IMG/VR virus record: IMGVR_UViG_3300022745_000017
Span: 1-64,000 of that record
Length of the DNA stretch: 64,000 bases
Reading direction: 5' to 3' (one strand)
From: a virus
Numbering within the stretch: position 1 is the first letter of the stretch; each line of letters opens with the position of its first letter. Of the stretch, positions 42,280 to 63,857 are shown one piece after another. The notes beneath the pieces are model-generated. The model was not told the DNA's origin and searched no databases. It worked only from the letters and a program-made list of their open reading frames with translations. The position numbers and the translations under genes are program-made.

Positions 42280-44220
42280 ATGTCGACTCCCACTGGGATC
42301 AAAATCGGTGGCGCTTCCCCTTTGGTGCGCCCTGTAACCACCGCCCCTGCCGCTGCACCCGCAGCTCCTTCCTCCCCCGCCTACAGTAAGCGAGAAGATG
42401 CAATGGAAAAAGACAAAGACTTCGATCAGCGCGCCAACTGGCGCGCTAAAGCCATCAGCACCCCCAGCCAATCTGCGCAAGCCGGTGACCTGCTGGAGCT
42501 GACCCGCAAGGTCATGAGCGATTACAACATCCCTGGCTGCAAGCTCTCGGCCGAGCTGGTCTCTGGCACGACCTACGGCCTGCTGTTCTCGACGGTGGTG
42601 GTGCGCCTCTCTGCTGGCTCCAGCCATGCGGTGTACATGCTGGCTGCTGAAGGCAGCTTCGCCGATGGTCGCTACCCCGACGCTGTCGTCAAAGTGGCCA
42701 ACTCCGGCGAAGTAAGTGTGGCCCGTGGCCCGATGGACGCACTGGGCGGCAAGTATGCCAAGACTTTGACCGACCATGTCTTGGCTGGCCTGCCCCACGG
42801 TGACACCCTCATCTACGTGGGCAACACCTACGTCCCGCGTGAGTGGGATTGTGGCGCGGACACGAGCGTCAACGTGCGCACCAAGGTGGTTGGCCTGATC
42901 GTCAACGCCATCGCAGCGGTGGCCGCTGAGTTCACCGAGCAACGCGGCGAGCAGCCCATCAATTTGGCAACATGGTTGCAACCAGGTGAAATCCTGGAAG
43001 CCGCTGTTTCGTTCGGCAACGAACCTCGCCCCAATGCCCTCGGCGTGCCCACTCGCACCGATGTCATCATCGACCTGCGCACTGCGGTGACTGGTCGCAC
43101 AGCTGTGCGTGAACGCGACCGCGACGGGTTCGACTTCATGGACTTGAACACCACCAAGGGCGGCGGCACACTGGCGTCGATCGGTGGTTGGCTCCAAGCC
43201 GAATGGATGCCTGAAACGGGCGAGGTCGTGCGTGACTCCGAAGGCCGGATCTTGCCGCGCCCCTTGGCGGCTCGCTTGATCTTGAGCAACCTCGTCAGCA
43301 CCGAAGCCAAGTGCTTGTCCCTCACCACGTTGGCGGTGGCAACGGCAGCGGTAATGCGTCAAAGCAGCATCTGGTGGCATGGCTTCAAGCCGCGCTACAA
43401 TGCCACGCAAGCGGTGAAGGACGCCACGAACGTGGGCGCGCTGGATGTGCTGGTGAACCTGGCCGAACGGATGACGCCGCGTACCGCCATGGGTGACATC
43501 CCCTATGGCGAAGTGCAACGCCTGGGCAGCGACGCTGAGTGGGATTTCTTCATGAACGCCAGCTTTCAGCAACGTCTGGCCATCGGCTTGCTGGTGCCTG
43601 CGGCTGATCCCGAAAGCTGGGCCCTCGATCCTTTCCTGCGCTCAGCGCTGGGCGATCCCGACAGCGATGCCTTGATCGCAGGGTTGCTGAACTGGTTGAC
43701 CAACAACAAGTTCGCCGACTACTACGACGGTGGCTCGATCTGCCTACCCTACTCCGAGCAGGTGCAAACGGGCACCTACACCGGCAGTGATGGCATGCCA
43801 CGCCCCATCGAGGACGTTGACTTGACCGCCGTTTGCGCCCGCTTTGGCAAGCAGCAGCCTGACGGCATCGTGGCCTGGATGAACGCCGTCAACGACGCCA
43901 ACACGTCGTTTGCCCGCTCGGCAGCCAGCCGCGCGACGATCCGTGACACGGTGCTGGGTGTGCCCAGCAAGGTGCGTGGCACTGCCACCATCGTGATGCT
44001 GCGTGGCCATGTTCTGGACGCCGCACAACGTGCCATGGACGCCGCCAAGGTCAGCCCGCGTGTCATCGCTCCTGGCCTGGCTGCCATCGATCAGCGCCGT
44101 CAAGGTGCTCGCTGGGGTGATGCCTTGCTGGACAGCCGCACCTACGGGCGTGGTCGTGGTGGTGACGACGGTGGTGGCAGCACGCTGAGCCTGCGCAGTC
44201 GCGCCTTCCGCAACGCTTAA
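42280..44220 (+). CDS. chmA: Probable chimallin (phage nucleus shell protein)
   Basis: This 646-aa protein is a strong candidate for the shell of the phage nucleus. Three points support it. Its size is close to known chimallins (about 600-630 aa). It lies directly upstream of the non-virion RNA polymerase beta'-N gene, the same order as phiKZ gp54-gp55. Its codon use is extremely G/C-biased, like sheath, tube and PhuZ, as expected of one of the most abundant proteins. The N-terminus (residues 1-45) is Pro/Ala-rich and flexible, and the C-terminus has a Gly/Arg/Ser-rich tail (RGRGGDDGGG and then SRAFRNA). Flexible ends link chimallin protomers in the lattice. I do not recognise a sequence motif unique to the family, so the call rests on context. 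AGAGGA precedes the ATG. Confidence 0.65.
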   Translation: MSTPTGIKIGGASPLVRPVTTAPAAAPAAPSSPAYSKREDAMEKDKDFDQRANWRAKAISTPSQSAQAGDLLELTRKVMSDYNIPGCKLSAELVSGTTYGLLFSTVVVRLSAGSSHAVYMLAAEGSFADGRYPDAVVKVANSGEVSVARGPMDALGGKYAKTLTDHVLAGLPHGDTLIYVGNTYVPREWDCGADTSVNVRTKVVGLIVNAIAAVAAEFTEQRGEQPINLATWLQPGEILEAAVSFGNEPRPNALGVPTRTDVIIDLRTAVTGRTAVRERDRDGFDFMDLNTTKGGGTLASIGGWLQAEWMPETGEVVRDSEGRILPRPLAARLILSNLVSTEAKCLSLTTLAVATAAVMRQSSIWWHGFKPRYNATQAVKDATNVGALDVLVNLAERMTPRTAMGDIPYGEVQRLGSDAEWDFFMNASFQQRLAIGLLVPAADPESWALDPFLRSALGDPDSDALIAGLLNWLTNNKFADYYDGGSICLPYSEQVQTGTYTGSDGMPRPIEDVDLTAVCARFGKQQPDGIVAWMNAVNDANTSFARSAASRATIRDTVLGVPSKVRGTATIVMLRGHVLDAAQRAMDAAKVSPRVIAPGLAAIDQRRQGARWGDALLDSRTYGRGRGGDDGGGSTLSLRSRAFRNA

Positions 44221-61231: not shown

Positions 61232-61265
61232 CCCAGGTACTCGTGCTTGCGCACGAGTACCTGGG
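61232..61265. terminator. Bidirectional terminator between convergent genes
   Basis: Perfect 15-bp arms (CCCAGGTACTCGTGC and its complement) with a 4-nt loop are followed by ATATTTTCTTTTT. They lie between the helicase stop and the stop of the convergent frameshift product. Confidence 0.8.
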
Positions 61266-61284: not shown

Positions 61285-61800
61285 TTAGGACTCTAAGTCC
61301 TTCATTGAGTCTTTCAAGTTGTCTAAGACCTCTCTGCCTTTTGCCTCTTTTGAAGACATGATCTTGTCGCACACCGCGATCATCTTTTCGACGACTTCAG
61401 GGGGGCAGTTGATGAAGTCCAAAAAGCTGATGTTGTAGAGTTCACCGATCTTTTTGTTTGGGAAAACATCCAGTAGTTTGAACAGCTGGCTGTGTTCGGT
61501 GTACTCTTCAGCAGGGTGTATCTCGAACGAAGCAAAGGGTCGTTTCAAGCTTGGGTCGACGGCGGGATTATCATCCAGGGCTTCTTGCTGAATGTGATCG
61601 AAGATGCCGTAACGTGTGTTGTAAGCATCTCCGAGTAACTTCCTAGCTTCTGCCCAGGTTTTAATCCGATCGCCTTGTAGCAAGATCTCTATAACGCTCT
61701 CTCCGGTAGCTTCTACCCCGAAGTCGACGTTACAGATGTGATTGACCCTTACCGGGTCTCCTTGATGATTTTTGCTTTCTGCCCCAGGAGGGTAAAAAAA
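61285..61800 (-). CDS. -1 frame extension of the zinc-ribbon tail-assembly protein
   Basis: This frame is open without stop from the T7 run at 61794-61800 to a stop at 61285. It is exactly the -1 frame relative to the 488-aa gene. It has no ATG or GTG near its beginning; the first possible start is TTG 61683, which would discard the well-formed segment NVDFGVEATGESVIEILLQG. The simplest reading is that it is translated by a -1 ribosomal slip on T_TTT_TTT, giving a fusion of about 643 aa. That arrangement is typical of phage tail assembly chaperone pairs. The extension is helical and acidic (AEARKLLGDAYNTRYGIFDH). The alternative is a homopolymer sequencing error in one long gene. Confidence 0.6.
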   Translation of the reverse strand, partial: FFYPPGAESKNHQGDPVRVNHICNVDFGVEATGESVIEILLQGDRIKTWAEARKLLGDAYNTRYGIFDHIQQEALDDNPAVDPSLKRPFASFEIHPAEEYTEHSQLFKLLDVFPNKKIGELYNISFLDFINCPPEVVEKMIAVCDKIMSSKEAKGREVLDNLKDSMKDLES

Positions 61801-63215
61801 GCTTTCGTCGCATCCACCGGAATGACATCAGCCCAGCGCGGAGATGCGTCGGTGATCTTTTCCACACCGCCGCAAGAAGGGCACTTGTAGGCATTCACAC
61901 CGATGATGGCGATCGTGGAGTCGTCGATGAACTTGCCGACTTCCGTGGTGAAAGCCTTGCGCAACTCATCATCACAGCTCAAGCGTCCCAGGGTTTCTTC
62001 GATCGCTTCTTGTTGCTCTTTCTCGCACGTCGCACGCACTTCACCATCCACCAAGATCGCTTCCACGAAGTGCGCGTATTGACGCATTGCCGTGGCTTTG
62101 GCTTGATCGAAGAGGTAATCGTTGCGGGTTTGTGTGTCCGCGATCAGCGCTTCCGTGTAAGCCTTTTCCAGCTCACTGACCCAGCGGTAGCCGCTGTCGG
62201 CGTAGTCCTGGATGGTGCAGATGCGCAGTTGCAGACCAATGCCTGTGTCCTGACCCAAGCTGATGATGCGGGGTTGGCCACGCAGGAACTCCTTTTGGTA
62301 AGACTTCAAGTCTTCTACCGTGACGGAGTTGTAAGTGCGGCGAGCCAGTTGAGCACACTGACGCTTGGTGAGCGCTGTCAGATCGATCTGGTGCATGCGC
62401 TGCGGGAACATCTTACCTGTCGAGACGTGTGTGCATTTGTCGGGATCGACTGTACAGGCTCGACTGTATTTCACGCCATTGGGCCAAGTCGCTGCGGCAA
62501 TGGCAGTCACCAAGGCATCATGATCAAGCAGCTTGATGTGGCTCATCAGTGTTTCCACCGGGACATTCAAGGTAGACTCCTTGATATGTCGCATGATGAA
62601 TCGCATCACTTCTGCACTGAAGTAAGAGCGCACATTGGAGAAGATCGCCCCAAAGGTTTGGCGACCCAGCGTAGCGCGCTCTTCGACGATCAGGCGATGC
62701 AGCTCCAGCAGCTCACCTTCAGTGGCTGGCAAGATCGAGACACAAAAGCCCGAATGAGGCAGGGGTGTCCACTTGGGCGTGCCCAGGCCCAGGCGCTTGG
62801 TGACGATGTCAGCCAGTTGTACTGAGCCAGTCCCACCTGAGGTGTTGACACTGCGCATCTGGATGAGGTCGCCTTCGTACTCGATCTCTTGCCGCCAGTC
62901 GCTGTTTTTGTCTTCAGCCGATTTGACGAATCGGTCGGCGTGGGTGGTGGTGTAGGAGCCGTTGTTAACAGCACTGATCCATTCCCGCCCATCCTGCGTC
63001 CGCCCGAGCTTTTCGAGCAAAGCGGTGTTGCCCAGGAGCACACGGTAGCGCGTTTCAGAGGTCGTGGGAATAAAAAGCGTTTCAAAGCCCTTGACACCCT
63101 TGACATCATCGGAAAACAGTGGCGTCTTCGTGCTCCAGGTGATGTTCTTTCCTTCGGCGATGGGCGGTGTATCGTCGCCAGTGGGCACAGTGTTGGTATC
63201 GGTTTGATTGTTCAT
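61749..63215 (-). CDS. Zinc-ribbon baseplate hub / tail assembly protein
   Basis: This 488-aa protein starts MNNQTDTNTVPTGDDTPPIA, with AGGAG 9 nt before the ATG. Near the C-terminus YKCPSCGGVE is half of a zinc site; the pattern CPxCG followed by IPVDATKAFF resembles the T4 gp26-type baseplate/tail-assembly family (CPxCG...P.D...FF). The domain before it is helical. Earlier Cys residues (CTVDPDKC near residue 255) might contribute a second metal site. The slippery T7 run lies in the FF codons, and the frame ends 15 codons later. Both zero-frame and -1 products are therefore likely, as for chaperones that bind the tape measure. Codon use is G/C-biased. Confidence 0.6.
   Translation of the reverse strand: MNNQTDTNTVPTGDDTPPIAEGKNITWSTKTPLFSDDVKGVKGFETLFIPTTSETRYRVLLGNTALLEKLGRTQDGREWISAVNNGSYTTTHADRFVKSAEDKNSDWRQEIEYEGDLIQMRSVNTSGGTGSVQLADIVTKRLGLGTPKWTPLPHSGFCVSILPATEGELLELHRLIVEERATLGRQTFGAIFSNVRSYFSAEVMRFIMRHIKESTLNVPVETLMSHIKLLDHDALVTAIAAATWPNGVKYSRACTVDPDKCTHVSTGKMFPQRMHQIDLTALTKRQCAQLARRTYNSVTVEDLKSYQKEFLRGQPRIISLGQDTGIGLQLRICTIQDYADSGYRWVSELEKAYTEALIADTQTRNDYLFDQAKATAMRQYAHFVEAILVDGEVRATCEKEQQEAIEETLGRLSCDDELRKAFTTEVGKFIDDSTIAIIGVNAYKCPSCGGVEKITDASPRWADVIPVDATKAFFTLLGQKAKIIKETR
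61794..61800 (-). other. Slippery heptamer T_TTT_TTT for -1 frameshifting
   Basis: On the coding strand the zero-frame reading is GCT TTT TTT ACC. The seven T fit the X_XXY_YYZ rule exactly in register. Both tRNAs could re-pair perfectly after a 1-nt backward slip, after which the -1 frame is open for about 170 codons. Confidence 0.6.
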
Positions 63216-63231
63216 GATGACGTTCTCCTGA

Positions 63232-63738
63232 TCAGAGTTGGCTCAAAAGAGTGGGTTGTTGTTTGGCGCGTTTGGTGGCTGCCACAGTTTTCTCAACGAT
63301 CAGCAGTTGCCGCGTCAGATCCACAGTCAACGGATGCATGACTGAGTTATAAAACATTTGCAGGTCGGCGTATTCTTGGCCTAATGCAAGGGCCTCCATG
63401 TTCTCGTCGGCATTGACAGCTGCTCCCTTGCGGTCAGTGTGTTTGTCACGCAAGGCGTACAGCCTGTCTCGGTATGTTTCATACTGAGCGTCCAGCGCTT
63501 CGACGACTTCACGCAGAGCTTGTGCGTTGGTGATGAGGGGAAGCACTTCCTGATCTTTGATGAAATCACACGCAAGCATCAGGGATTCGGTCACACGCGA
63601 GAAGCACTCCATCTGGATGTCTTTGAGGCCATTGACCTCATCCCAGATTTTCACACGGGTGTAGACTTGTTCTTTGGGAGGGCGTTCTTCCTTGGATTGG
63701 AGGACGCGCTGATGGACTTTGGACATACGAGAAGACAT
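63232..63738 (-). CDS. Unknown protein upstream of the tail-assembly gene (168 aa)
   Basis: ATG 63738 (MSSRMSKVHQRVLQSKEERP) is preferred, as GGAG lies upstream; the second Met 4 codons later is possible. The protein is almost entirely helical and charged and looks like a small coiled-coil assembly protein. The stop lies 17 nt before the start of the zinc-ribbon gene, so they form one operon. A tail-assembly role is inferred from position only. Confidence 0.6.
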   Translation of the reverse strand: MSSRMSKVHQRVLQSKEERPPKEQVYTRVKIWDEVNGLKDIQMECFSRVTESLMLACDFIKDQEVLPLITNAQALREVVEALDAQYETYRDRLYALRDKHTDRKGAAVNADENMEALALGQEYADLQMFYNSVMHPLTVDLTRQLLIVEKTVAATKRAKQQPTLLSQL

Positions 63739-63857
63739 GGTGTGTAAACTCCAAGTTAAAATAAAGAGGTAAAACGCGCAATCCGCGTACACCTAGACCA
63801 AAAGATTGGTGCTTGGTTAATTTTTTATAGTACATCCACTGCGAAGGAACTCTCCAA

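Follow-up and report, generated by a model that had tools for sequence, protein, structure and literature searches.

A predicted programmed -1 frameshift, conserved among phiKZ-like nucleus-forming phages, in a probable tail assembly chaperone gene

Background

Frameshifting is a classic feature of tail assembly chaperone (TAC) genes, to which T4 has been given as an exception (PMC5009743). In lambda, a single gene specifies the short protein gpG and, by a -1 frameshift near its 3' end, the longer gpGT (PMC5009743). The TAC locus of the Vandenendeviridae and Andersonviridae, as represented by phage Adele, has a conserved poly-T motif, GTTTTT, and an open -1 frame (PMC12846349). For T4, passages in two papers credit the short and long tail assembly chaperones (TAC-N and TAC-NC) to Vladimirov et al. 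2022 (PMC12846349, PMC10885494).

Here we describe a gene of comparable organization in a stretch of 64,000 nucleotides, referred to below as the window, which is part of a virus record of 217,973 bases. The original prediction was that this DNA comes from a phiKZ-like phage, which the gene content of the window bears out: it encodes a homologue of the nuclear-shell protein, a sheath and several subunits of RNA polymerase. The nuclear-shell protein (chimallin-type, 42280-44220) is diverged and matches phrog_4795 at 1.6e-27.

The slip site and the two reading frames

The locus is composed of the following elements:

61749..63215, minus strand: zero-frame gene of 488 aa, homologue of PHIKZ077 (phrog_4585), proposed short TAC (TAC-N, T4 gp26-like)
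61794..61800, minus strand: slippery heptamer T_TTT_TTT in the zero-frame register, GCT TTT TTT ACC
61752..61793, minus strand: dual-frame region, 14 codons from the slip site to the zero-frame stop
61285..61794, minus strand: extension in the -1 frame, 169 aa and a stop codon (phrog_12109); would form the C-terminal part of the 643-aa TAC-NC (gp51-like)

On the minus strand the context of the heptamer is ACG AAA GCT TTT TTT ACC CTC CTG, and 14 codons separate the second TTT from the zero-frame stop, TAA, at 61749-61751. The -1 frame continues to a stop at 61285-61287, a length of 169 residues counted from the slip. After the slip, the first codon that could serve as a start is codon 38, a TTG (61683); the interval from the preceding -1 stop to the slip contains none. 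Thus, the two local features on which the original prediction was built, a T7 run in register near the end of the gene and a long open -1 frame without an early start, are both present. Two forms with a common N-terminal part, of 488 and 643 aa, are predicted from this arrangement. T7 runs occur four times in the 64-kb window; the slip site is the only one within a coding gene, the others being intergenic. When 32 window genes were examined, the slip gene included, 9 had a -1 or +1 frame that remained open over 120 codons or more after the stop. Since such long open frames mostly represent neighbouring genes, the length of an open frame is by itself weak evidence, and it is conservation that decides.

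Like lambda gpG/gpGT, the predicted products are a short form and a -1 long form from one gene, with the slip near the 3' end. The lambda slip sequence is a different one, the lambda protein is far smaller, and the lambda locus adjoins the tape-measure gene. The resemblance to the Adele locus lies in the poly-T slip motif and in the annotation of the -1 frame as a separate hypothetical gene, but that locus belongs to another phage lineage and is directly upstream of the tape-measure gene.

Conservation of the slip site and the -1 frame

A first set of 24 divergent loci (the window and 23 phages) was compared. All have an in-frame TTT_TT(T/C/G) located 9 to 44 codons ahead of the gene stop, and the open -1 frame yields 149-175 aa in each, with the exception of RVTF4. 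In RVTF4 (L010) a break cuts the -1 frame short after 58 aa, and the gene annotated next lies in the +1 frame, in contrast to close relatives; this reflects either a mutation of that lineage or an error in the record. The zero-frame gene, as a homologue of PHIKZ077, is carried by 192 phage records.

A scan of virus contigs with the single 488-aa protein (P0001) found no relative, but three such scans with sub-family alignments provided a larger set of 71 homologue clusters at 70% identity. In all 71 clusters the -1 frame remains open for 110 codons or more beyond the zero-frame stop; the +1 frame does so in none of them. An in-frame TTT_TTN is found in 70 of the 71 and the strict form, T_TTT_TTN, in 62. 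The codon that precedes the two Phe codons is not fixed (A, T, V, I, G, L, Y, E and others), but in 62/71 clusters it ends in T. Computed from each gene's own codon usage, the chance that the first Phe codon would be TTT in every case is about 10^-36, a figure to be taken as indicative since the clusters share ancestry. The departures from the strict heptamer are a clade (L150-L158) with CTT_TTT_ATT, which is not a classic heptamer but is still followed by an open -1 frame, and eight other clusters in which A or G replaces T at the first heptamer base. The T run and the downstream frame, whose conservation was named as a check of the original prediction, are therefore conserved, and a single uninterrupted frame, which would have refuted that prediction, was found in none of the 71 clusters. 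On this comparison, chance is excluded as the origin of the two-frame arrangement.

The same alignments bear on whether the T run is simply misread in this record, the locus really being one frame. Homopolymers are error-prone and the virus contig was taken from a public collection; nevertheless, the two-frame arrangement recurs in 71 clusters of relatives, finished phage genomes included. Moreover, both frames match those relatives downstream of the run: the 14 zero-frame codons (FFTLLGQK..., compare FFTLLGQKVSQIRDRT of FLC9) as well as the -1 frame (YPxx...H-I/V-xxxxFG...). We regard a sequencing or assembly error as extremely improbable.

Several relatives have only 5-6 T's at the site (GAG_TTTTTC, ACA_TTTTTT), which is short for slippage of a polymerase. 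This speaks against a transcriptional origin of the long form, in which the phage RNA polymerase rather than the ribosome would slip on the T run, as does the fact that the run keeps its codon register and tolerates TTC as the second codon, in line with what ribosomal slippage predicts. Long T runs can make polymerases slip and these phages encode RNA polymerases of their own, but on balance transcriptional slippage appears very improbable.

The -1 frame holds the next annotated gene in 21 of the 22 annotated relatives, and in phiKZ (PHIKZ076.4), PhiPA3 (073), FLC6 (gp203) and others it is annotated as an independent ORF. Some loci also offer an early start codon, for example an ATG at codon 19 in D6, so that the downstream frame could be a separate gene that is translated from its own start with no frameshift. 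However, the first start is 85 codons past the slip in phiKZ, and in the window it is only the TTG, 37 codons past. The region from the zero-frame stop to the first possible start codon was compared between relatives. In 322 codons from 31 non-overlapping pairs, the differences at codon positions 1, 2 and 3 of the -1 frame numbered 61, 43 and 154. This excess at the third position, ahead of any start codon, indicates that the stretch is translated, and ribosomes arriving from upstream are the simplest source. An invariant -1 relation together with an in-frame slip site would likewise be unexpected for independent genes. A separate downstream gene is thus very improbable, and the comparison of sequences makes a very strong case for a programmed -1 frameshift conserved across the phiKZ-like nucleus-forming phages. 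The frameshift that was originally proposed for the window gene is supported by the slip site and the open, selected -1 frame of its relatives.

Stimulatory elements

Not every known frameshift site needs a stimulatory element. Downstream of the slip site there is no consistent RNA structure (z scores between +1.3 and -2.7 for the phiKZ family and between -0.6 and -0.7 for the window), and the heptamer itself therefore probably drives slippage. Nor was a consistent Shine-Dalgarno-like element found upstream of the site.

Gene neighbourhood

Two further elements flank the frameshift gene:

63232..63744, minus strand: small upstream gene, homologue of PHIKZ078 by position; conserved 5' neighbour (synteny)
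61232..61265, no strand assigned: perfect 15-bp inverted repeat with a 4-nt loop, terminator-like, with a T-rich tail on the plus strand

The order PHIKZ078 homologue, PHIKZ077 homologue, extension is conserved in the annotated relatives. In the window and in these relatives, the neighbours are homologues of PHIKZ078, PHIKZ079 and PHIKZ080, a helicase and RNA polymerase subunits; in neither does a tape-measure gene adjoin the frameshift gene. The match of the small upstream gene (63232-63744) to Phage_TAC_12 is weak and not significant (E 0.079). The inverted repeat (61232-61265) lies some 20 bases beyond the -1 stop, between the convergent helicase and chaperone genes. As a terminator of the minus-strand transcript it was given little weight, because the T-rich tail is on the plus strand only.

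The zero-frame protein

The 488-aa protein has two pairs of cysteines:

62433..62456, minus strand: second Cys pair, C254...C261, part of a probable metal site
61872..61883, minus strand: C445/C448 in a CPSC knuckle, a short distance ahead of the slip site; co-varying with C254/C261

The original prediction described a zinc-ribbon protein. The cysteine motifs are indeed present, but they consist of two pairs about 190 residues apart. Both pairs are present in 63 of 77 homologues and both are absent in the remaining 14; one pair is never found alone. Since they are kept or lost together, the pairs probably form one metal site.

Pfam searches with single sequences gave nothing significant; the 488-aa protein had no match to PF12322 at its gathering score, and only 2 of the 77 homologues matched that family (best E 0.0079). 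In a profile comparison, hhalign aligned the final ~120 residues, up to and including FF, with T4-like gp26 at 92% probability. The AlphaFold2 model of the zero-frame protein is confident (pLDDT 91) and that of the extension fair (80). A fold search of the PDB gave no match. In a Foldseek search, the zero-frame model retrieved proteins of the phiKZ family first and then T4-like 'baseplate hub assembly' proteins, the latter with E values of 1e-4 to 1e-3, prob 1.00 and a target TM of about 0.5. For the 169-aa extension, hhalign against the gp51 tail gave 1% and E 0.05, which is not significant.

The last result, a protein more than twice the size of T4 gp26, and the lack of an adjacent tape-measure gene would all be compatible with a genuine frameshift pair that serves some late function other than that of a tail assembly chaperone. 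Such a function is unlikely in view of the gp26-like C-terminal region, the Cys knuckles, the fold match and the common position of the frameshift. The tail-assembly role first assigned to the gene is supported by its likeness to T4 gp26 in profile, Cys knuckles and fold, and by the frameshift in gp26 of cyanophages described below. The identification of the frameshift gene as a probable tail assembly chaperone is thus well supported, if indirectly, by sequence, structural models and analogy.

Comparison with gp26 and gp51 of T4 and its relatives

The short and long chaperones of T4 are, we take it, the products of genes 26 and 51, in line with the sequence evidence given here. T4 gp26 and gp51 both match PF12322, and gp51 has an extra tail of 48 aa; gp26 contains two Cys knuckles, KCTCG and KCPECG. 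The T4 short form ends in CPECG...FF, comparable to the knuckle and FF near the C-terminus of the window protein, and its long form adds a C-terminal tail to a gp26-like region, as does the long form predicted here; paired Cys knuckles and a related fold are further similarities. T4 differs in that its proteins are encoded by two separate paralogous genes with no frameshift, and in their sizes, 208 and 249 aa compared with 488 and 643 aa in the window phage. T4 itself has no such slippery site. T4 gene 26 also is not adjacent to gene 29, just as the window gene lacks a tape-measure neighbour.

In cyanophages and in the schizo-T4 phage Vibrio phi-ST2, gp26 ends with T_TTT_TTC, one codon and a stop (loci L026:1474-2372, L028:2060-3075 and L165-L244). 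The tiny 'gp51' annotated in these phages is the -1 frame of gp26, and the sequence T_TTT_TTC-NNN-stop is nearly invariant. S-RIM50 and Vibrio phi-ST2 thus resemble the window phage in having the in-frame heptamer just ahead of the gp26 stop and a gp51 made up of the -1 frame. They differ from it in that a single codon separates slip and stop, the -1 tail measures about 57-68 aa and gp26 has 236-282 aa; in S-RIM50 the Cys knuckles are also lost. It should be noted that in ECML-4 (Ackermannviridae, L027:2252-2956) an open -1 frame of ~57 codons comes after the gp26 homologue, with no classic slippery heptamer.

One possible history, which we put forward tentatively and somewhat short of even odds, is that the phiKZ-like nucleus-forming phages and the T4 superfamily both inherited a frameshifted gp26-gp51 pair from a common ancestor. 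The two-gene state of T4 would then be derived, and in the phiKZ-like phages the parts would have become enlarged (TAC-N to about 490-690 aa, the -1 domain to 150-180 aa) and unlinked from the tape measure.

Proposed mechanism and implications

We consider it highly probable that programmed -1 ribosomal frameshifting allows the gene to specify a tail assembly chaperone of two lengths. The majority of ribosomes would read FF and stop 14 codons on, producing the 488-aa short form. In a fraction of them, the two Phe tRNAs on T_TTT_TTT would slip back in tandem by one base, and these ribosomes would translate 169 more codons to give a minor long form of 643 aa. If lambda gpG/gpGT and T4 gp26/gp51 are a guide, the short form may coat the complex of tape measure and hub, and the long form may contribute a domain that initiates assembly of the tube or hub; both would depart before the virion is completed. 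In this scheme we infer slippage and its rate, the binding partners and the chaperone role.

A search of the open literature found no report of a frameshift in the phiKZ-family gene. The kind of frameshift is thus known, but its phiKZ-like branch is apparently unreported. The finding suggests a likely function for two conserved 'hypothetical' genes of phiKZ-like jumbo phages, which would both be parts of one frameshifting gene. The annotation of the second as a separate and usually truncated hypothetical gene would consequently be wrong across the phiKZ-like group. The tail assembly of phiKZ-like phages would also be linked to that of T4, offering a clean comparative case in which one phage has two paralogous genes where its relatives appear to use a frameshift.
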